Positions 2 through 9,880 of a DNA stretch of 11,021 nucleotides are shown in pieces. Under the pieces are notes generated by a model. It was not told where the DNA came from, searched no databases, and saw only the letters and a program-made list of their open reading frames with translations. Position 1 is the stretch's first letter, and the number at the start of each line of letters is the position of its first letter. This DNA is from Bacteroidales bacterium (GTDB lineage Bacteria > Bacteroidota > Bacteroidia > Bacteroidales > Azobacteroidaceae), in the NCBI GenBank assembly GCA_020860885.1, contig JAJBTS010000425.1, positions 1 to 11,021 on the forward strand. The letters run 5' to 3'. A program made the translations under genes and the position numbers.

Positions 2-2461
2 TATGAAAGTGAGGAAGTTATTAATATTCCTTGTAAAACAAAATATCCGTCTCCTGTTATCAGCGTTGTTATGTGTGTTTACAATACAAAACTTGAATAT
101 TTGAAAGAATCTATAGAAAGCACACTTAACCAAACATTCACCAATTTTGAATTTATCATAGTAGACGATGGCTCCACCGATACTTCCTGTATCGAATGTA
201 TGGAATCTTATAAAGATTCAAGAATTCGGCTTATACGAAATAACCATGATTACATTGATTCTTTGAACAGAGGGATAAAAGAATCAAGAGGTAAATACAT
301 TGCAAGAATGGATTCGGATGATATAATGATGCCCGATAGATTGGATTTTCAATATACCTATATGGAATCACATACGCAAACGGATATTCTTGGAGGTGGG
401 GTACATTATTGGGGAGGAAATCAAGAAAAGTTTAATGGAAGCAAAGGAATCGTTACTATAAATGATTTGCTAGTAGGAAATTGCATCTTAAATCCGACAG
501 TTATGATGCGGAAAGCCAGCATTCTTAAAACAAAGATTCAATACCATGAAAAGTTCAAATATGCTGAAGATTATCATTTTTGGTCACAGGCAGCTATGGC
601 AGGTCTTTATATAATGAATTTAGACAAACCTGTACTAAAATATCGGATTTCATCCGAACAAATAAGTTCTATACACCAATATGAACAATATAAGAAAGCA
701 AAACAAATCCAAAAAGAACTCAGCCAATGGATTGCACGCGATGAAGCGCTATGGGCAGAAACACATCCCTATGAAATTCCGGACACACTCAATAAATTGA
801 CTGTTATTATCCCATTTCTAAATGAAAAAGAAGAGGTCGGAAATACAGTAAAGAGTATCCGTGAAACGGCAGGTGAAAACGTTGATATTATTGTAATTAA
901 TGATCAATCAAATGATGGCTATAACTATCGAAGAGATGTTTTACCTTACCATGTTGTTTATGTATACAATAAGGATAGACTCGGAGTCGCAGCCAGTCGG
1001 GATTTCGGAATAAGTCTTTGTAAAACTCCGTTTTTTATTTTGTTAGATGCTCACATGAGATTTTATGATACATTGTGGGTGGAAAGAATTGTCTCTGTTT
1101 TAGAAAAAGATGATAGATGTCTCTTGTGTAGTCAAACAAGATTTTTGAAAAAGGACTTAAACGGTCTTGTCACCATTAATAAGAAATGTTCCAAAGTGTT
1201 TGGAGCCTACATATCCTTTGATAAAGACAACTGTTTACCAGGTATTCAATGGGATTACAAGGAAAAGAACAAAAATGAGCAAATCGAAGAAATAGCAGCA
1301 GTATTAGGAGCGGGATATGCTGCGAGTAAAAGATATTGGGAGTATCTAAGAGGGCTTGAAGGTTTACGATATTACGGAAGTGATGAAGCTTTTATCAGTT
1401 TAAAGGTATGGTTGGAAGGTGGGAAATGTTTATTGCTTAAGGATGTGGAAATCGGTCATATATATAGGGACGCTTCCCCATACAAAAGATACAACGAAGA
1501 CGAAGTATATAACAGCTTGTTAATCTCTAAACTCCTTCTTCCGCAGAATTTGAATTGTATGTCCAATGCCGTGGCCTTACTGAAAAATCGAAATACTTAT
1601 TTGAGAGCAAAAAACATTTTGAAGGAATATGAGGAAGAAATTAAGGATGCAAAGAAATATTACAGTTCGATTTTCACCAATTCTATTGACCAGGTATTGA
1701 ATATGCAAATGAAATCAATCTCGTATGAAGCTAAGATTGTTGATAGCTGCTTAAATAGGATAACGATTTTTAACCAATATGTGTATCGAAATATGCCTGA
1801 AGATTATGGAATATTTGAGGGAAAATCTGCGGTTCTGATCTGGTTGTATCATTATGCAAAATATACCCGGGATGATTTCTGGATGAAGAGTGCGGAAGAG
1901 TTACTAGGTATAATTAAAAAAGCAATATCGGAAGAAGAATTACCTTGGAATTTTGAAAAGGGTATATGTGGTATCGGATGGGCAGTTATGTATTTGTATT
2001 CCCATGGATTTATAAAAGAAAAACCGGATGAAGTGATCCGAATGGTTGATGAATCCTTAAAAGTCATTGATTGGGATGAGTTTGAGGATTATAGTATAGC
2101 AACTGGTGGTGGTGGTTTATTTGCATATCTATCACTTAGAACAATGCATAACAATTCCTTCACATGTGAATACAAGAATAAACTACGGCAATTAGCTTTA
2201 CGAGTGCTGGATTATTCATCGGATTTATCATCTTGTTACTATGCAATGCTGTATTTATCAACAAATGACGAAATTTCAACAAAATCTAAAGAAGACATTT
2301 GTATCGACTATCGGAATGCCAACCTTAATGATTGGGTATTTGCTCCTATTTTCTTACCTAACGAATCCTGTTATTGGGACACTTCACTAGCTCATGGATG
2401 TATCGGCGCATTGATAAAGGCCATACATATAGATACTTTAAATTTAAAAAATAGTTTATAA
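2..2461 (+). CDS. Two-domain glycosyltransferase with C-terminal LanC-like toroid segment (5' end outside window)
   Basis: Predicted cytoplasmic peptide-modifying glycosyltransferase. The frame is open to the window edge and residues upstream of the first ATG (nt 71) already form the GT2 strand PVISVVM, so the true start lies upstream and Met71 is internal. Numbering from Met71: GT-A domain 1 covers about 1-215, with VDDGS (31-35), DSDD (81-84) as the DxD metal site and EDYHFW (166-171). GT-A domain 2 covers about 240-490, with IIPFLNE (246-252), LLDAHMRF (324-331, a DxH metal site) and a distal block W447-LEGGK...GHIYR (462-466). This matches the pattern of polypeptide GalNAc-transferases. 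Residues about 574-796 show glycine motifs of an α/α toroid like LanC (GICGIGW 631-637, ATGGGG 677-682, LAHGCIGA 773-780). This part is only about half LanC length and lacks the usual zinc Cys/Cys-His site. The gene ends 31 nt before the radical SAM gene. Substrate (the peptide at 3800-4123) is inferred from context. Confidence 0.85.
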   Translation, partial: YESEEVINIPCKTKYPSPVISVVMCVYNTKLEYLKESIESTLNQTFTNFEFIIVDDGSTDTSCIECMESYKDSRIRLIRNNHDYIDSLNRGIKESRGKYIARMDSDDIMMPDRLDFQYTYMESHTQTDILGGGVHYWGGNQEKFNGSKGIVTINDLLVGNCILNPTVMMRKASILKTKIQYHEKFKYAEDYHFWSQAAMAGLYIMNLDKPVLKYRISSEQISSIHQYEQYKKAKQIQKELSQWIARDEALWAETHPYEIPDTLNKLTVIIPFLNEKEEVGNTVKSIRETAGENVDIIVINDQSNDGYNYRRDVLPYHVVYVYNKDRLGVAASRDFGISLCKTPFFILLDAHMRFYDTLWVERIVSVLEKDDRCLLCSQTRFLKKDLNGLVTINKKCSKVFGAYISFDKDNCLPGIQWDYKEKNKNEQIEEIAAVLGAGYAASKRYWEYLRGLEGLRYYGSDEAFISLKVWLEGGKCLLLKDVEIGHIYRDASPYKRYNEDEVYNSLLISKLLLPQNLNCMSNAVALLKNRNTYLRAKNILKEYEEEIKDAKKYYSSIFTNSIDQVLNMQMKSISYEAKIVDSCLNRITIFNQYVYRNMPEDYGIFEGKSAVLIWLYHYAKYTRDDFWMKSAEELLGIIKKAISEEELPWNFEKGICGIGWAVMYLYSHGFIKEKPDEVIRMVDESLKVIDWDEFEDYSIATGGGGLFAYLSLRTMHNNSFTCEYKNKLRQLALRVLDYSSDLSSCYYAMLYLSTNDEISTKSKEDICIDYRNANLNDWVFAPIFLPNESCYWDTSLAHGCIGALIKAIHIDTLNLKNSL

Positions 2462-2492
2462 TGTTTAATTGTAATATTAAAATTAATTATAT

Positions 2493-3782
2493 ATGAAAAA
2501 AAGCAAGTACAATTTTTTGTTAAATACAAATACACAAACTGTCATATACAATATTTACAATGACGAGTTGGCGTTGATAGACCCAATGTTGGTCAATCTC
2601 TATAAAGCAGATAACTGTTCAGAAATAGAAAAGCAACATCCGGAATTTTATACGTTTTTAGTAGATAAGGGGTTTATTGTTGAGGATAATATGGACGAAT
2701 CCTTAAGACAGAGAATGGATTGGAGGAAAGAGGATGAAAACGACTTTAGCATAACTATTAATCCAACGTTAAATTGCAATATGAGATGTTGGTATTGTTA
2801 CGAAGATCACGATAAGAATACTGTAATGAGTGAAGACGTTGTATCATCAATAAAAGAACTTATAAACAAAAAAACAATGGATGAAGCTTTAGATAATCTA
2901 TACATCTGTTTTTTTGGTGGGGAACCGCTACTTACATTTAATAAAATTATATATCCGTTATCTCAATGGGCTTGTAACCTTTGTGAGGAAAGAGGGAAAA
3001 AAATATCCATTTCATTTGTTACAAATGCATATTTATTATCGGAAGCTGTTATAAATAAATTGGACACTCTTAAAGTAGATTCTCCTATGGAATTTCAAAT
3101 CACTCTTGATAGTAATCAGCGTTACCACGATGTGGTCAGACATACGCAAAGTGGAAAAGGAAGTTACTCTTCAATCTTACAAAATTTAAAGGAAACATTA
3201 AAAAGGGAAATGTATGTTAGTCTCCGATTAAATTATACAAAATCAAATATACATTCATTTATTGATGTTTTATCTGATTTAAAAGAGATATCCAAAACGG
3301 ATCTTAAGTATCTTACCATTGACATGCATCGTGTCTGGCAGGATTCGCAAGATGATAGAACTGAAAAACAAGTGCAAAAACTTAGAGATTTATTTATAAA
3401 AGATGGCTTCAGAGTTCGTAATGCATTCGCTGTAGAAAAATATCGTTGTTATGCAGATAGACAAAATAGTGTAGTTATAAACTATAATGGCGATTTATTC
3501 CGCTGTACGGCACGGGATTTCACGAATAAAAATAGAGAAGGGATGATAGATAAATCCGGAAACTTACTTTGGAACGAAAAATCTCAAAAACGGGACTCCA
3601 TTAAATACGGAAATGAATTTTGCATGGATTGTGATATATATCCATTGTGCCATGGTACATGTAGTCAAAATAAGTTAGAAAGCAATCTTGTAAATGGCTG
3701 TTATTGCCATTTACAAGAAAAAGATAAAAAAGAAATTGTGGAAAAGAGAATTAAAACTCTCTTAGATACAAATATTGTTTAA
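2493..3782 (+). CDS. Radical SAM/SPASM peptide maturase
   Basis: Predicted cytosolic iron-sulfur enzyme that modifies the neighbouring precursor peptide by S-adenosylmethionine radical chemistry. In SPASM peptide maturases this is often formation of thioether or carbon-carbon crosslinks; the exact reaction is not readable here. The protein has 429 residues. Residues 1-75 form a small N-terminal domain that may bind the leader (PqqD/RRE-like position, not proven). The radical SAM cluster motif is C95-x3-C99-x2-C102 within LNCNMRCWYCYE, and the SAM-binding glycine motif is FFGGEP (140-145). The C-terminal SPASM region has C319, then NGDLFRC ending at C338, C377-x2-C380-x5-C386-x3-C390, and C403/C405, enough for two auxiliary clusters. 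The ATG at 2493 is preceded by an A/T-rich stretch without Shine-Dalgarno site. It lies 31 nt after the glycosyltransferase gene and 17 nt before the precursor, so all three are probably one transcript. Confidence 0.93.
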   Translation: MKKSKYNFLLNTNTQTVIYNIYNDELALIDPMLVNLYKADNCSEIEKQHPEFYTFLVDKGFIVEDNMDESLRQRMDWRKEDENDFSITINPTLNCNMRCWYCYEDHDKNTVMSEDVVSSIKELINKKTMDEALDNLYICFFGGEPLLTFNKIIYPLSQWACNLCEERGKKISISFVTNAYLLSEAVINKLDTLKVDSPMEFQITLDSNQRYHDVVRHTQSGKGSYSSILQNLKETLKREMYVSLRLNYTKSNIHSFIDVLSDLKEISKTDLKYLTIDMHRVWQDSQDDRTEKQVQKLRDLFIKDGFRVRNAFAVEKYRCYADRQNSVVINYNGDLFRCTARDFTNKNREGMIDKSGNLLWNEKSQKRDSIKYGNEFCMDCDIYPLCHGTCSQNKLESNLVNGCYCHLQEKDKKEIVEKRIKTLLDTNIV

Positions 3783-3799
3783 TTTCTAAAAAAAATGTT

Positions 3800-4123
3800 A
3801 TGTTAAAAATCAATGAAAAAGAAATTGCTTCTTTAGTGAAGAACGATTTTGTTCCTTTAGAGGAAAGCAAAGAGGGCTCTCTAAAAGGGGGATTTGGATC
3901 CATTATTCAGGCAGGTAATATCTCACTGAGAGCCTCGAATAATTGCAAATGCAATGGTAATAATTGTAAGTGCAGTAGTGGAAAAGACAATTGCGATTGT
4001 CCTAATGGAAGCTGTAATGTTGATAATCCTAAAGGTAATAATTGTAATTGTTCATCTACATCTACATCAACATCTACATCAGCCTCAGGTAAATCGTTTA
4101 TGGATTTAGGATTCTCCTTTTAA
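3800..4123 (+). CDS. Cysteine-rich double-glycine RiPP precursor peptide
   Basis: Probable substrate of the two upstream enzymes. The 107-residue product has a leader of about 31 residues ending in GSLKGG (26-31), with Leu at -4 (L28) and Leu at -12 (L20) relative to the cut. This is the spacing seen in leaders processed by C39 peptidases such as the one encoded at 7262. Cleavage after Gly31 would release a 76-residue core. The core holds nine cysteines (49, 51, 56, 58, 65, 67, 72, 82, 84), eight of them as CxC pairs in repeated NCKC/NCDC/NCNC units rich in Asn, Gly and Lys. A Ser/Thr alternating tract (85-96) follows, then a short tail ending MDLGFSF. The core has no membrane segment. The ATG follows an A-rich run (TTTCTAAAAAAAATGTT). 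Precursor identity rests on size, leader, cysteine content and neighbours; a Cys-rich structural or metal-binding peptide is a less likely alternative. Confidence 0.85.
   Translation: MLKINEKEIASLVKNDFVPLEESKEGSLKGGFGSIIQAGNISLRASNNCKCNGNNCKCSSGKDNCDCPNGSCNVDNPKGNNCNCSSTSTSTSTSASGKSFMDLGFSF
3938..4051 (+). repeat. Imperfect NCxC repeats in the precursor core
   Basis: Codons 47-84 encode four imperfect units centred on NNCKC, NNCKC, NCDC and NNCNC, separated by Gly/Asn/Ser/Lys linkers, with one lone Cys (C72) in the NGSCN segment. At DNA level the units share AATAATTG(C/T)AA(A/G/T)TG(C/T). This suggests growth by duplication. The repeats probably mark multiple modification sites. Confidence 0.75.
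4052..4087 (+). repeat. In-frame TCTACA-type hexanucleotide tract encoding Ser/Thr repeat
   Basis: Twelve codons are almost all TCT/TCA (Ser) and ACA (Thr) in alternation, with one GCC (Ala). They encode SSTSTSTSTSAS just after the last cysteine pair. Because each hexamer is one Ser-Thr dipeptide, gain or loss by replication slippage would stay in frame. The tract is a plausible O-glycosylation region or flexible spacer. Confidence 0.8.
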
Positions 4124-4404: not shown

Positions 4405-5229
4405 ATGAATTTTTTAAAGTTTTGTATTACATTAAGTTTTGTATGCTTTGCTATTATAACTCATGCAAATACTGTATTTATAAAAGGAGTAGTAAGGGAA
4501 CATATCACTTATAAACCTATTCCTTTCGTAAGTATTTTGGTGATGGATAAAGACAGCATAGTGTTAACGTCGGGAATGAGTGATGGCGATGAAGGATTAA
4601 ATCCGTATCAATTTTCTATAAATAATGTTCCGTTGCGTGATTCTTATATTCTAAGATTTTCGAATGTCGGGCATGAAACGACTTTTGTACCTTTAAAGCT
4701 AAAAAAAAATCAGACTTTTGTAGATATGGGGAATGTCATTATGAAAAGATCCGTTAACCAGTTGACGGAAGTTGTTGTGAATGCTACAAAAATTAAAATG
4801 GTGGTAGATAAAGACACTGTTATTTACAATGCCGATGCTTTTCAACTGTCGGAAGGCAGTATGCTCGATAACCTTATAAAACAATTACCCGGAGTAGAGC
4901 TGAATGAGGACGGACAGATCCTGGTGAACGGCCGCTTCATAAGCAGCCTCCTGCTCAACGGCAAAGATTTTTTTAAAGGGGATCCGAAAGTGGCGCTGGA
5001 AAATCTCCCAGCCTATATGGTGAACAAAGTAAAAGTATACGAAAAAGAACGTGAAGATGCTTATCTGACAAAGAACAAAGTGGATATGGACAAAGAACTT
5101 GTAATGGATGTAAACTTAAAAAAGCAATATTCAATCGGTTTATTGCCAATGCTGAGGCCGGCTACGGATCTGAGGAACGTTATCTGGGCCGATTGTTTGG
5201 CCTTCGCTTTACAGACCACTCCCGTTTGA
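4405..5229 (+). CDS. N-terminal fragment of outer-membrane protein: signal peptide, regulatory-like domain and plug
   Basis: This 274-residue open frame starts with a clear signal peptide (MNFLKFC... to THA21), probably cut before Asn22. Residues about 24-114 form a carboxypeptidase-regulatory-like β-sandwich (start FIKGVVREH, end DMGNVIMKR). Residues about 120-215 form the plug-like part, with TEVVVNAT (121-128), DKDTVIYNADAF (135-146), LPGVELNEDGQ (161-171) and NGKDFFKGDP (185-194). The first 245 residues are family-like. The last 29 (from Leu246 to TTPV) are out-of-frame translation caused by the frameshift. As it stands the product would be secreted to the periplasm without a barrel and is unlikely to work alone. 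Base composition rises from roughly 30% GC near the start to about 50% GC around nt 4921-4980. Confidence 0.85.
   Translation: MNFLKFCITLSFVCFAIITHANTVFIKGVVREHITYKPIPFVSILVMDKDSIVLTSGMSDGDEGLNPYQFSINNVPLRDSYILRFSNVGHETTFVPLKLKKNQTFVDMGNVIMKRSVNQLTEVVVNATKIKMVVDKDTVIYNADAFQLSEGSMLDNLIKQLPGVELNEDGQILVNGRFISSLLLNGKDFFKGDPKVALENLPAYMVNKVKVYEKEREDAYLTKNKVDMDKELVMDVNLKKQYSIGLLPMLRPATDLRNVIWADCLAFALQTTPV
5137..5147 (+). other. Site of the -1 frameshift in the outer-membrane protein gene
   Basis: The stretch GGTTTATTGCC is read GGT-TTA-TTG in the first frame. Loss of one base in or beside the T-run (for example GGT-TTT-ATT-GCC reduced by one T) explains why SIG is followed in the next frame by FI/ANAEAGYG. 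No X-XXY-YYZ slippery heptamer is present at this phase. Confidence 0.75.
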
Positions 5230-7253
5230 GTTTTTATGCCAATACCAACAACCTCAATCAGAATCAAAAACCGGGTAGATCGGGCGATTGGAATAACCAA
5301 TGGGCATCGGCAGGACGTATAGATATGATGACAGGCGGCTTAGATTTGCAGTTAAACGACAAAAAAGGAGTGTATCAGCTCAATAGTGACCTGACAGTAC
5401 GGCTTGAAGATATAGATAGCAAGACATTAAGTTCGGGTGTAGCGTTCCTGCCCAATTACGACAGATATACCTTCGGACGCAATAATTCTGATAATAAGAA
5501 TACAGCGATCACCACAAATCATGAGCTAATACTTAAGAAACCCTATTTGTGGTCTAAATTTCAGGTATCTGCAAGCTATTCCCATTCGAATAATAAAGGA
5601 TTAGACCAAGGTGCAGAATTTAACGAAAAGTTGATTGAAAGTTATAGGGGCGAAGTACTTGATTCTTTGTTTTCACCCAATCAATACATCTCATTTGCCT
5701 CTGCTCTCGTCAATTCTCACCAAGAAAAAAACCTAAGCAAAGGAGATCAATACAATACCAAGCTGTATAGTTATGTCAGTTGGCACGATTTTAGATTTGT
5801 AGCAAACGCCTTGTATAATAAAAGAACAACAAAAGAATTTTCTCAATATGGGTTGAACTATGGTGAGGCAACAACAGACTTTCGCAATCGCTATATCGAT
5901 AGGTTTTCCGAAAGATTTTCCTATGACCTAATGGCTGAATATTCATACATTCTGCCGGACCATGAAGATTTTAGTGTGGCTTTATCCTATAATTTTGCAG
6001 GCAAGCATCACTCCGGAGACAAAGCCTTATACCGTCTTGACGAGTACAACGACTGGAATTCTTTCAACGGACACCCTTTAGGATATTTACCTTCGACAAG
6101 AGATTCATTGTTACAGGTAATGGACTTGCAAAACAGCTATTTCTCCACAGAACAAAATAGGGAACATACTCCTAGTTTACATCTGTCTTATAATCTTCCG
6201 ACAAAAGATCAGGCTGGCATTTCACTAAGCCTGCCTCTTCATATGGAGCACGATGAATTGTCCTATAAACGGGCGCAACTCGACACAATAGTGAAGCGAA
6301 ATACTATTCTTTTTAATCCGACCCTAAGTTATGGACTTTATCATTATAGCGAAAAGATCAATAAAGTTCAACAACTTAATTATTCTTTCAAACAATCGGC
6401 GCCGAATATGGTTAGCATGCTGAACATCCAAGACGATTCGAATCCGTTACTCATACAGTTGGGAAACCCGGATTTGCACAACGAAAAGTCGCATAAGATT
6501 GAATTCAGCCATACTTACAGCAGACAGGAAAATCAACGCAATCTAGGAATTAATGTGGATTGGGAAGTATTAATGGATGCAATAGCGCAATCTATGACAT
6601 ATAATGAAGAGAGTGGTGTCAGAACTTATATTCCCCAAAATATTAATGGGAACTGGAACATAGGAGCCAGGTTTAATTTCGGTCAGGCTATTGATAAACA
6701 GAAGTTGTGGCATCTATCCACAACAACTGGAATCCAATACATCAACAGCGTAGACTGGATATCATTAACTGATATTGAAAACAGTATAAAAAGCAAGGTA
6801 AAGAATCTCAATTTTACGGAAGTATTAAAAATTGACTATCGAAAAGAAGAATTGCATATAGGCGCTACTGTGAGAGGTAAATGGACACATACAACTTCCG
6901 AACGGGATAATTTCAGCACGATTAATAGCTTAGACCTGAATTATGGAGTGTCTGCGGTATTGCCGCTTCCTTTTAAATTCAGGTTGTCAACCGATCTTAC
7001 CTTGTACACGAGAAGAGGATATACTTACGACACGATGAACACGGAAGATTTTGTGTGGAATGCAACTCTTTCGCGAAGTATTTTACGTGGAAACCTGACT
7101 TTCTTTATAGACGGATTCGATATACTCGGACAACTCTCTAATGTTCGTCAGACGCTTAATTCCCAAGGACGCATAGAGACCTGGTTTAACTCCATTCCTC
7201 AATATGTGATGCTAAGAGTGATATATAGATTGAATAAAGAACCTAAAAAGTAG
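5193..7253 (+). CDS. C-terminal β-barrel fragment of the outer-membrane protein
   Basis: This 686-codon open frame encodes the barrel: alternating polar/aromatic strands with long loops rich in Asn, Asp and Tyr, through to a final strand QYVMLRVIYRLN before EPKK. It has no signal peptide and no credible start of its own. The frame is open upstream of 5193, which is only a TTG, and the first in-frame ATG is at 5325, inside the barrel. Family-like sequence continues back to about nt 5142 (ANAEAGYGSEERYL). It should therefore be read as the second half of the protein beginning at 4405 and not as a separate gene. Confidence 0.85.
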   Translation: MFGLRFTDHSRLSFYANTNNLNQNQKPGRSGDWNNQWASAGRIDMMTGGLDLQLNDKKGVYQLNSDLTVRLEDIDSKTLSSGVAFLPNYDRYTFGRNNSDNKNTAITTNHELILKKPYLWSKFQVSASYSHSNNKGLDQGAEFNEKLIESYRGEVLDSLFSPNQYISFASALVNSHQEKNLSKGDQYNTKLYSYVSWHDFRFVANALYNKRTTKEFSQYGLNYGEATTDFRNRYIDRFSERFSYDLMAEYSYILPDHEDFSVALSYNFAGKHHSGDKALYRLDEYNDWNSFNGHPLGYLPSTRDSLLQVMDLQNSYFSTEQNREHTPSLHLSYNLPTKDQAGISLSLPLHMEHDELSYKRAQLDTIVKRNTILFNPTLSYGLYHYSEKINKVQQLNYSFKQSAPNMVSMLNIQDDSNPLLIQLGNPDLHNEKSHKIEFSHTYSRQENQRNLGINVDWEVLMDAIAQSMTYNEESGVRTYIPQNINGNWNIGARFNFGQAIDKQKLWHLSTTTGIQYINSVDWISLTDIENSIKSKVKNLNFTEVLKIDYRKEELHIGATVRGKWTHTTSERDNFSTINSLDLNYGVSAVLPLPFKFRLSTDLTLYTRRGYTYDTMNTEDFVWNATLSRSILRGNLTFFIDGFDILGQLSNVRQTLNSQGRIETWFNSIPQYVMLRVIYRLNKEPKK

Positions 7254-7261
7254 ATAATAGA

Positions 7262-9460
7262 ATGTTTGGAATCCGACGTCCGTTTTCTTTTACCCGCCAA
7301 TTTGATGAAATGGATTGTGGCCCTGCCTGTGTCCGCATGGTAGCTTTATATTATGGTAAAGATTATCCGCTGTCTTATCTACGTTCGCTCTCCCACCTGA
7401 CCCGTGAGGGTGTGAGTGTCGCGGGTATTCGGGACGCACTGAAAGAAATAGGTGCGAAAAGTGCGACTTTTGAGATGTCGTTAGATCAGTTGAAGGAGAA
7501 TTGCCCGCTTCCGGCAATTCTCTATTGGGAACAGAACCATTTCGTAGTACTCTATGATATTAAGAAAAGTAAATGGACCGGACGCCCGAAATATTACGTG
7601 GCCAATCCTGCTTACGGTAAACATGCATTTTCTGAAGAAAGCTTTTCCCAGTTCTGGCTGAACGGAGAAAAAGGTATTGTGATCGTTGTAGAGCCTACTG
7701 AAAAGTTTTTTGAATCCAAATCAAAAAAAGAGAAACATAGCCTTATCCGTTTTGCCAGGAAATATGTATGGCCTTATAAGTGGGAAATGTCTCAGTCGGC
7801 ATTTGGTATGCTCTTCGGTCTTTTACTTTCGCTGATAACGCCTTTTTTAACGCAAGCTACCGTAGACTATGGTATCGGAATGCGTAATATGGGACTCATA
7901 GTTAACATCCTGTTAGCTCAAATATTCATATTTATTGGTTCTTTCTCCATGGGACTTATCGGCAGTTGGGTAACCCTGTATATGAGCACACGTATCAGTA
8001 TTAATATACTCAGCGACTATCTGACCAAGCTTCTGCGATTACCCATGACTTTTTTCGAAACAAAGAGTGTGGGTGACTATCAACAACGATTGGATGACCA
8101 CGGACGCTTGCAAGGGTTCGTGACTTACAGTACCCTGCAGACTTTATTCTCTCTCATTTTGGCCCCATTCTTCCTGGCTATAATAGGATGGTACAATCCT
8201 GTAATTTTGTTTGTGTATCTGGTATTGACAGGAGTAAGCATAGGATGGATGTCGTGGTTTTTCCGTAAACGTAAAGCCATAGACTACGAACAGTTTAAAG
8301 TGAACGCAGAGAATCAGAACAAACAATATGAGTTGATGTCCGGTATAACAGATATCAAACTCAACAGTTATGAAGATTATAAACTGGAGGAATGGCGTGA
8401 GTTGCAGGAACGCCAATACCGCATGAGGCAAAAAGGACTTAAACTGGAACAAATTCAAAATACAGGCTTCTCCATTATCGGACAATTAAGAAATATATTC
8501 ATTACTTTCTGGGTTGCTTCTGAAGTTGTAAACGGCAATTTGACGCTGGGTATGATGATGAGTATATCAGCCATCATCGGCCAGGTAAATGGTCCCCTCT
8601 CCCAGCTTATTGATTTCTTGCAGCAGTTCCAGGACGCAAAGATAAGTCTGGAACGGTCGGAAGAAGTAAAACTCTGTAATGACGAAGATAGTAAATTCCA
8701 GGCAGATGTTCCTACAGACAAACCGCAGGATATAGAGATAAAAAATTTAAGTTTCTCCTATACAGGAAGTATTGGGAGGAAAGCATTGGAAGATATATCG
8801 TTAACCATTCCTGCCGGAAAAATGACAGCCATTGTAGGCGAAAGCGGCAGTGGAAAAACAACCTTGATGAAACTGCTCCTGAAATTCTACGCACCCACAG
8901 CAGGTGAAATTTTATTAGGAGGACAGAACCTGTCGGATTTCAAGGCGAAATCTATCAGGCATGCATCCGGTATTGTGATGCAGGATAACTTTTTATTCTC
9001 AGATACAGTCAGACGGAATATCATACTAGGTGAAGAAGCCAACGAAACACTTCTGCAAACAGCTATCGAAGCCGCCTGCCTGACCGATTACATACAGAAC
9101 CAGCCTCTTGGATTAGAAACAAAAATAGGTAGCGATGGCATTGGGGTAAGTGGGGGTGAGAAACAGCGAATCATGATAGGACGAGCTGTTTATAAAGAGC
9201 CGCTATATCTTATGCTTGATGAAGCGACAAGTTCGCTCGATGCAGAGAATGAAAGAAAAATCACAGAAAATCTGGATAAGCATTTTGCCAATCGTACCCG
9301 TATTGTAATAGCCCATCGGTTGTCTACAGTAAAGAATGCAGATAATATTGTGGTGTTACGCCATGGACAGGTAGTAGAACAAGGGACTCATTTAAAACTT
9401 GTGGAGCAGAGAGGGTATTATTATGAACTTATCCATAACCAGTTAGAACTGGCGGATTAA
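7262..9460 (+). CDS. Peptidase-containing ABC transporter (C39 leader peptidase-exporter)
   Basis: Inner-membrane exporter that cuts double-glycine leaders and exports the released peptide. The length of 732 residues is normal for the family. The N-terminal C39 peptidase (about 8-145) has Gln13 and Cys19 in QFDEMDCGPAC, His93 in QNHFVVLYD, and VANPAYG with Asn115 where most members have Asp. The membrane domain lies at about 175-440 with several hydrophobic helices (for example 181-198, 212-238, 293-330, 405-445). The ATPase domain (about 490-730) has Walker A GESGSGKTT (526-534), Q-loop Gln574, signature VSGGEKQR (629-636), Walker B YLMLDEAT (649-656), D-loop SLD (658-660) and switch His685. 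It works as a homodimer in known relatives. It sits 8 nt after the outer-membrane protein and 15 nt before the small membrane protein, so the three are co-transcribed. The precursor at 3800 is the obvious local substrate (inference). Confidence 0.95.
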   Translation: MFGIRRPFSFTRQFDEMDCGPACVRMVALYYGKDYPLSYLRSLSHLTREGVSVAGIRDALKEIGAKSATFEMSLDQLKENCPLPAILYWEQNHFVVLYDIKKSKWTGRPKYYVANPAYGKHAFSEESFSQFWLNGEKGIVIVVEPTEKFFESKSKKEKHSLIRFARKYVWPYKWEMSQSAFGMLFGLLLSLITPFLTQATVDYGIGMRNMGLIVNILLAQIFIFIGSFSMGLIGSWVTLYMSTRISINILSDYLTKLLRLPMTFFETKSVGDYQQRLDDHGRLQGFVTYSTLQTLFSLILAPFFLAIIGWYNPVILFVYLVLTGVSIGWMSWFFRKRKAIDYEQFKVNAENQNKQYELMSGITDIKLNSYEDYKLEEWRELQERQYRMRQKGLKLEQIQNTGFSIIGQLRNIFITFWVASEVVNGNLTLGMMMSISAIIGQVNGPLSQLIDFLQQFQDAKISLERSEEVKLCNDEDSKFQADVPTDKPQDIEIKNLSFSYTGSIGRKALEDISLTIPAGKMTAIVGESGSGKTTLMKLLLKFYAPTAGEILLGGQNLSDFKAKSIRHASGIVMQDNFLFSDTVRRNIILGEEANETLLQTAIEAACLTDYIQNQPLGLETKIGSDGIGVSGGEKQRIMIGRAVYKEPLYLMLDEATSSLDAENERKITENLDKHFANRTRIVIAHRLSTVKNADNIVVLRHGQVVEQGTHLKLVEQRGYYYELIHNQLELAD

Positions 9461-9475
9461 ACGAAGCACTTAATA

Positions 9476-9880
9476 ATGAATAAAACGATAATTAAATACG
9501 GCGTATTTGTCATACTGTTAATTATGTCTTTAGGATTACTAATTATTCTCAATCGTTTTGAGGTTTATTCAAAGACATCCGTTAACCTGATTGTATTAGA
9601 AGAGGAAAGCTGTATGGCCTATGTTGCCTATAGCAATAGTTTCAATCCGAACGTGGGCGATACAATAGAAATAACCCAGACCCGTGGTGGTGATATTCGT
9701 TTCATACTGAAGGAAATCCATAGAGAGCCTTCCAATTTAATTCTTAAGCTATATCCCATGGACGAAAAAACGAAGGTCCGGCAAAAGTTCGGAGGTGATA
9801 CTTTTTCCCCGGGATATATATTTACAGGTAGAGTGAAATTACTCGAAGTGATAATAAAGCAGTTTGCAAATGCGAGATAA
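9476..9880 (+). CDS. Small membrane-anchored protein, possibly a minimal HlyD-like adaptor
   Basis: The 134-residue protein has one N-terminal transmembrane helix (about 8-26, FVILLIMSLGLLIIL), then a β-rich domain predicted to face the periplasm. The pattern NPNVGDTIEI (58-66 region) and the ending SPGYIFTGRVKLLEVIIKQF resemble the C-terminal β-domain of HlyD-type membrane fusion proteins, and this position right after a C39 exporter is where an HlyD homologue normally stands. It lacks room for the lipoyl and coiled-coil hairpin regions of a normal adaptor (usually about 400 residues). It could be a reduced adaptor, an exporter accessory subunit, or an immunity protein held in the membrane. 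The start codon ATG fits the 15-nt gap after the ABC gene. No terminator with a T-run was found behind it. Confidence 0.6.
   Translation: MNKTIIKYGVFVILLIMSLGLLIILNRFEVYSKTSVNLIVLEEESCMAYVAYSNSFNPNVGDTIEITQTRGGDIRFILKEIHREPSNLILKLYPMDEKTKVRQKFGGDTFSPGYIFTGRVKLLEVIIKQFANAR

Follow-up and report, generated by a model that had tools for sequence, protein, structure and literature searches.

Glycocins such as sublancin, made with SunS, share a double-glycine (GG) leader, a Cys-containing peptide and an enzyme of glycosyltransferase (GT) family 2 (GT2), and to our knowledge they have no radical S-adenosylmethionine enzyme (rSAM). Ranthipeptides and sactipeptides (PapB, CefB, geopeptide, TIGR04463 rSAM_vs_C_rich) feature an rSAM with a CxxxCxxC motif and a SPASM region, together with a Cys-rich precursor. 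The window studied here, which is the whole stretch of 11,021 nucleotides forming contig C329 (JAJBTS010000425.1) of the draft Bacteroidales genome G000 (438 contigs, 3.0 Mb), carries a GT gene, an rSAM/SPASM gene and a Cys-rich precursor gene in a row. From its gene content, we judge with moderate confidence that the locus is a cassette for the biosynthesis, maturation and export of a ribosomally synthesized and post-translationally modified peptide (RiPP).

Other described systems already bring an rSAM and a GT to one RiPP. Mycofactocin, a redox cofactor derived from Val-Tyr, is handled by the rSAM MftC and the GT2-family MftF (PMC7491314) and differs from the system in the window in having neither a Cys head nor a tail. 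The MftF model gives the window GT 48.7 bits against a cut-off of 280. In Bacteroidales, 41 areas of interest combining rSAM, LanC and GlyS were listed, and their LanC-like sequences are reported to lack the zinc motif (PMC10352776, Table 1 for the list). These GG-Bacteroidales systems (TIGR04157 glyco_rSAM_CFB; PMC10352776) resemble the window in the order of the host, the GG-type precursor, the rSAM, the GT and the LanC-like protein. They differ in that the GTs and the LanC-like domain of the window form one polypeptide and that its precursor consists of a Cys head and a mucin-like tail; the covered parts of the main text of PMC10352776 make no mention of N-acetylgalactosamine (GalNAc)-transferase-like domains or of such tails. 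The TIGR04157 model has 11 matches in genome G000, none of them on C329, which is cut upstream of the cassette. The sequence-only reading of the window had proposed a new RiPP type on the grounds that an rSAM and a GT act on one peptide, and in view of mycofactocin, the Bacteroidales regions and TIGR04157 that claim was too broad. What appears new here is the GalNAc-transferase-like enzyme in a RiPP cassette and the head/tail precursor; among the open-licence papers listed, none was found to describe either.

On balance, we favour the reading that gut-type bacteria make a small secreted peptide with an rSAM-modified, Cys-rich head and a mucin-like tail rich in Thr and Ser, which would be sugar-coated by a bacterial relative of the animal enzymes that initiate mucin glycosylation. 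Its observed basis is gene content, predicted folds, motifs, co-occurrence of the genes and an association of the GT with the tail.

Glycosyltransferase and LanC-like domains

The GT open reading frame (ORF) contains two PF00535 stretches (total E 4e-47 in the Pfam scan), and its AlphaFold2 model, with a mean predicted local distance difference test score (pLDDT) of 89, has two GT-A domains followed by an all-helical domain, which bears out the dual GT-A protein noticed earlier from the sequence alone. The 5′ end of the ORF is open, cut off by the contig start. The closest relative, P0002, is 74% identical and has about 285 extra N-terminal residues; a GT6-like identity for this extension was dropped after it gave no Pfam and no PDB match. 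Near the end of contig C380 of the same genome (L188, 8141-8353) lies a piece of about 50 residues, 68% identical to the N-terminal domain of P0002. It is not claimed as the upstream end of the window GT gene, as its frame stops after it and no further match was seen.

GT domain 2 has the catalytic GT-A fold of the polypeptide GalNAc-transferase family GT27. Every match of the profile search with its best stretch in this domain was a polypeptide GalNAc-transferase. The DxH motif occurs in all 37 aligned sequences and H486 is invariant in 30 of 30; the DxH and the distal His of GalNAc-transferases are metal ligands. Fold, DxH, the His of GHVFR/GHIYR and coverage of the catalytic domain are thus common to domain 2 and the animal and Toxoplasma enzymes, whereas the window enzyme is bacterial, shares about 19% identity with them and is fused to a further GT and a LanC-like domain. 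The Pfam scans of the GT ORF yielded no lectin family, and the LanC-like domain stands in the place of the ricin-type lectin domain of GT27. Domain 2 is proposed to be a peptide O-glycosyltransferase that would put on the first sugar, and domain 1, which has a DxD-type motif, is proposed to extend it.

Several observations count against this assignment. Foldseek ranks 1-13 are two-domain polysaccharide synthases (K4CP, heparosan synthase; root-mean-square deviation above 20), and GalNAc-transferases follow from rank 14 on. The single-sequence PDB search also returns seven weaker matches to other GTs, and where GalNAc-transferases have their WGGEN-type loop, the window GT has YGSDE.

The LanC-like family PF05147 scores 22.0 bits on the whole ORF, below the cut-off of 23.2, and 24.7 bits on the domain alone, above it; the family is matched at E <= 0.1 in 20 of 20 members. 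The zinc ligands of LanC cyclases, a Cys and a Cys-His, belong to the second half of the LanC fold. No Cys or His is found among the invariant or nearly invariant columns of the family alignment. The domain was rejected as a LanC cyclase, being only half of one and having no conserved Cys or His, and this half domain probably lacks a zinc site and serves only as a peptide holder. A further GalNAc-transferase-like and LanC-like protein is encoded together with a split lantibiotic dehydratase (PF04738, PF14028) at L070 (8029-16471), in a genome of the same order as the window; the product there is possibly a glycosylated class I lanthipeptide.

It is unlikely, in our judgement, that the GT acts on some other target (a surface glycan, immunity or the barrel) and stands in the operon for another reason. 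Domain 1 would suit such a role, since its similarities are to polysaccharide synthases and to enzymes for exopolysaccharide and teichuronic acid; however, domain 2 resembles peptide-acting enzymes, the tails described below appear together with domain 2, a LanC-like domain is fused to the GT, and a similar GT and LanC-like protein neighbours the lantibiotic dehydratase in L070.

Precursor peptide and radical SAM enzyme

The precursor of the window ends its leader in LKGG|F and contains nine Cys, in line with the double-glycine, Cys-rich peptide of the sequence-only reading. Among the 26 GT loci with both an rSAM match and a precursor call, GG followed by F ends the leader in 25. In the head, Cys follow one another in a run, and 63% of them have Asn at position −3. 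Asn occurs at most three residues upstream of 159 of the 185 Cys in these loci (shuffle mean 101.7, maximum 117), and upstream of 46 of the 144 Cys in 26 rSAM loci without GT (shuffle mean 54.2). The Asn at −3 may be a cross-link partner of Cys, much as PapB links Cys to Asp or Glu; the head repeats here are Asn-x-x-Cys, and the PapB motif is Cys-X3-Asp/Glu (PMC9413430). The tails of GT loci are rich in Ser, Thr and Pro (e.g., TTPTTPTTPT, PTPTPTPTPT, TTTTTTTTTT), and in many cases a hydrophobic end comes after them. The last residue is Phe in 18 of the 26 GT loci, compared to 0 of 26 GT-less ones. NCBIfam models gave no match to the window precursor; of nine relatives' precursors, eight had no match and one had two chance-level matches. 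At L001 (11342-11701), the head repeat has a period of about six residues, and a weak 16-bit match to sugar-acyltransferase models is probably due to chance.

All 24 cassette rSAMs aligned retain the three cluster Cys and six of the seven SPASM-region Cys, and 23 of them also retain the seventh, so that the enzyme type recognised earlier from CxxxCxxC and SPASM stands. Ranthipeptide and sactipeptide maturase models are among the nearest to the window rSAM in the NCBIfam matches listed, and the enzyme would install cross-links in the head, most likely Cys thioethers of this kind. Weighing against a close assignment, none of the 25 models listed, out of 47 that matched, reaches its cut-off with this enzyme: TIGR04463 is the best among these (163.9 bits against 525), with PapB at 116.4/340 and CefB at 132.3/600. 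The GT and the tail are additions relative to these systems. Going by record titles, the 20 rSAM loci from named genomes come from Bacteroidota, among them Bacteroides, Alistipes, Muribaculaceae and Tenacibaculum.

Recurrence of the cassette

Genomes were searched with GT domain 2 (window positions 779-1684, E <= 1e-20) and with the rSAM (E <= 1e-40). Up to five or seven first-look candidates were scored per genome, and the counts in the genome samples are therefore lower bounds. Among the sampled genomes, domain 2 was found in at least 4 of 393 from the order, the window's own included, in at least 1 of 395 from the phylum (the window's own) and in at least 19 of 301 from the family to which the Bacteroides acidifaciens genome belongs. 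In the cultured mouse commensal B. acidifaciens DSM 15896, locus L020 comprises a stand-alone GT domain 2, a precursor, an rSAM and an exporter. A comparison of the whole GT ORF with 45 genomes from the family of the window gave matches to domain 2 in the window's own genome, at two places, and in G034. A search of plasmids with domain 2 gave no match. One record labelled plasmid, NZ_OY725790.1 of Parabacteroides distasonis (L190), encodes an rSAM, two small hypothetical proteins, a barrel and a C39 exporter, with no annotated GT.

The 301-genome sample contains at least 25 GT places and at least 41 rSAM places. For 22 of the 25 GT places an rSAM lies within 4 kb, at a distance of about 3.5 kb at most, the remainder being G853:C40, G978:C46 and G1056:C57; a GT accompanies 22 of the 41 rSAM places. 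A rule-based search of 36 GT loci found a Cys-rich precursor of the GG type in 30. Co-occurrence across genomes, which the sequence-only reading had named as its own check, is thus observed for all three genes. The usual order is a GT-GT-LanC-like protein of about 800 aa, rSAM, precursor and barrel, often followed by an exporter. The rSAM comes first in L116 and L117, and the precursor is ahead of the rSAM in L081. The GT domains are on separate proteins in L058, L068 and L069, and GT domain 1 is not fused in L070, L113, L120 and L126. Since the cassette turns up repeatedly while the order of its genes varies, the grouping of the three genes is more than chance.

Distance matrices of GT and rSAM for 24 loci are correlated (Mantel r 0.75; none of 2000 permutations reached this value, the highest being 0.37). 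Shared species history contributes to this correlation, and, as a point against the favoured reading, the nearest neighbour is the same in both matrices for only 8 of the 24 loci.

Some genomes have several GT places: five in that of L001 and four in another. The second set of the window's genome (G000:C63, L058) has an unassigned N-terminal domain and GT domain 1 in one protein, the next protein comprising the GalNAc-transferase-like and LanC-like domains. At L068, a Core-2/I-branching enzyme domain (PF02485) is fused to a GT2 domain in two proteins (5174-6958 and 12648-14417); the peptide cluster to which they belong also encodes an rSAM, a GalNAc-transferase-like GT and, beside the latter, a TIGR04157 GT that scores just above its cut-off.

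Association of the glycosyltransferase with the mucin-like tail

One precursor per locus was chosen by rule, and a tail was defined as a Cys-free 12-residue window with at least seven Ser, Thr or Pro. A precursor was called in 30 GT loci and 26 others, with 6 and 11 loci, respectively, remaining without a call. Copies (L007, L020, L080) and L161, which is cut by its contig, were left out, and L012 was scored as lacking the GT though its contig is only 6.4 kb long. The tail was present in 22 of 30 GT loci and in none of the 26 others (Fisher 3.7e-9). Intact loci in which it is strong include those of the type of L110, L122 and L127. With a 10-residue window and at least six such residues the counts were 23/30 and 3/26, and with 15 residues and at least nine, 19/30 and 0/26. 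A first precursor caller, which missed many precursors and included some spurious ORFs, gave 11/17 and 1/23 with at least eight in 15. L162 and L163 have the head type of the window (NNCKCNGNNCDC, NNCRCNGDNCDC) and an rSAM, without GT domain 2 and without a tail; L162 has a LanC-like gene. The tail pattern becomes visible only when many loci are compared, and the Ser/Thr-rich end of the window precursor fits it.

A quick rSAM tree (57 rows, Shimodaira–Hasegawa-like approximate likelihood ratio test, SH-aLRT, support only) places the GT loci in one supported set of 26 rows, 23 with GT and 3 without, plus L018. The latter branches separately, between rows that lack the GT, and yet it carries a TP-rich tail and a GalNAc-transferase-like GT that stands alone. 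Of the GT-less rows in the supported set, L164 alone has full context; L012 is on the short contig mentioned above and L002 is 0.5 kb from a contig end.

A number of points speak against the association. Eight of the 30 GT loci fall under the tail threshold (L001, L078, L081, L082, L116, L121, L125 and L129), and the precursor of L070 has no such tail. The link comes mostly from one rSAM clade, with two independent contrasts on well-supported branches and four on all branches; of the two, an average of 1.7 are in the expected direction, 0.3 are equal and none is opposite (sign test p 0.5). With so few contrasts, mostly from one clade, the P values above overstate the evidence. Moreover, the idea of the tail was taken from the precursors of GT loci ahead of the test, and the GT half of the data is therefore not independent; loci L161-L179 were collected after the pattern was seen.

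The low complexity of the tail and the concentration of GT loci in one rSAM clade would also suit a mere spacer, or a low-complexity DNA repeat that marks the clade by chance. We regard this as improbable. Ser, Thr or Pro is encoded by more than one codon inside the tail window in 22 of 22 cases, which indicates that the tail is not a plain DNA repeat; more Cys stand before than after it, again in 22 of 22, with the last Cys behind the tail in L115 and L122; and the tail also occurs in the separate lineage of L018.

Two further explanations concern the site and the source of the sugar. A glycocin-like product, with an S-linked sugar added to head Cys by the GTs and the tail as a linker only, is quite unlikely. 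It has in its favour that a Cys-rich peptide adjoins a GT2-family enzyme and that SunS structures are matched by the GT profile (E 1.4e-8). This match is a single stretch of the generic domain 1 (profile positions 4-94, about 90 positions); SunS does not match domain 2, which served to pick the GT loci and is GalNAc-transferase-like. In addition, the head Cys would be needed for the rSAM cross-links, and the tail goes with the GT, whereas the Cys-rich head occurs in GT-less loci too. SunS and the glycocins were therefore abandoned as the best model, and the Ser/Thr/Pro tail is the likely acceptor. Of the hybrid RiPP envisaged in the sequence-only reading, the joint presence of GT, rSAM and precursor holds, the analogy to SunS/ThuS glycocins is not supported, and the novelty is smaller than proposed. 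Coating of the tail by the general periplasmic O-glycosylation of Bacteroidota, with the cassette GTs doing something else, is very improbable: such glycosylation of non-cytoplasmic proteins is common across the phylum (PMC12871550), but its motif D[ST][AILMTV] (Asp-Ser/Thr-hydrophobic) is nearly absent from the GT-locus cores (2/26, compared to 1/26 in the others), and the cassette GT gene adjoins the precursor gene.

Layout of the locus and neighbouring genes

The three genes on the forward strand are separated by 31 nt (2462-2492, GT to rSAM) and 17 nt (3783-3799, rSAM to precursor), exactly as first described from the sequence. The precursor is followed by an outer-membrane barrel gene, a C39-peptidase ATP-binding cassette (ABC) exporter and a small protein (Table 1).

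Table 1. Coordinates of the cassette genes, domains and motifs in the window.
Feature	Position	Strand	Remarks
GT ORF, 819 aa	2..2461	+	5′-open at contig start; GT-A domain 1, GalNAc-transferase-like GT-A domain 2, half LanC-like helical domain
GT-A domain 1, residues 18-245	53..736	+	Nearest solved relatives chondroitin polymerase K4CP and SpsA
GT-A domain 2, residues 262-575	785..1726	+	Polypeptide GalNAc-transferase-like
DxH motif, D349-A-H351, in GT domain 2	1046..1054	+	Invariant in the alignments made
H486 of GHIYR in GT domain 2	1457..1459	+	Aligns with the His of GHIYR/GHVFR in GalNAc-transferases
LanC-like helical domain	1730..2455	+	Matches positions 34-195 of the 350-position Pfam model
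Radical SAM/SPASM peptide maturase, 429 aa	2493..3782	+	
CxxxCxxC cluster motif (CNMRCWYC) of rSAM	2775..2798	+	
SPASM-region cysteines C319-C403 of rSAM	3447..3701	+	Conserved in 23-24/24
Precursor peptide, 107 aa	3800..4123	+	
Precursor leader	3800..3892	+	Double-glycine type, ends EGSLKGG, then F
Precursor Cys block	3944..4051	+	9 Cys, NCxC-type repeats
Precursor Ser/Thr-rich mucin-like tail	4052..4096	+	SSTSTSTSTSASGKS
Precursor hydrophobic C-terminus	4097..4120	+	FMDLGFSF, last residue Phe
Outer-membrane beta-barrel gene	4405..7253	+	Two overlapping frames, 4405-5229 and 5193-7253
C39-peptidase ABC exporter	7262..9460	+	Proposed role in cleavage of the GG leader and product export
Small protein	9476..9880	+	N-terminal hydrophobic stretch

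In relatives, the barrel gene is mostly one ORF of 850-1240 aa, and its two frames in the window may reflect true decay or an assembly error. With the barrel gene in two frames and the GT ORF truncated, the window's own copy of the cassette may not work, which is a further argument against its making the product proposed here. The barrel profile had no PDB match at E <= 0.1; the protein may be an export channel, an anchor or a receptor. Precursor and barrel genes occur as repeated pairs, three in L117 and two in L120, which suggests a specific outer-membrane partner for each peptide. The small protein had no Pfam or NCBIfam match above chance, and a relative follows the C39 exporter in L082, L111, L116, L118 and L122.

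Proposed pathway and biological meaning

In the favoured reading of a modified head and a glycosylated tail, the SPASM radical SAM enzyme would cross-link the Cys-rich head of the precursor. GT domain 2 would put the first sugar on Ser or Thr of the tail in the cytoplasm, and domain 1 would lengthen the glycan, with the half LanC-like domain merely holding the peptide. The C39 exporter would then cut after GG and export the product, with the barrel as its outer-membrane partner. The two chemistries, the identity of the sugar, when and where each step takes place, and what the LanC-like domain and the barrel do are all predictions drawn from genes and folds.

A bolder proposal, which we put forward only tentatively, is that Bacteroidales make "mini-mucins", RiPPs in which a thioether-cross-linked Asn-x-x-Cys head is joined to a tail bearing mucin-type O-glycans begun by bacterial relatives of the animal polypeptide GalNAc-transferases. 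As PF02485 domains of the Core-2/I-branching type are fused to GTs in L068, the glycans there may be branched. If so, such products could mimic or bind ligands of host mucus, or sit on the surface via the paired barrel.

If the favoured reading is true, a large set of proteins is opened, including bacterial GalNAc-transferase-like enzymes: 935 relatives of the GT ORF were found at E <= 1e-20 among 7998 candidates scored, although the whole architecture need not be common to all. Two chemistries would each have their own segment of one precursor, following a simple head-versus-tail sequence rule, and bacteria would be applying an enzyme of mucin-type peptide O-glycosylation to a radical-SAM-modified natural product.

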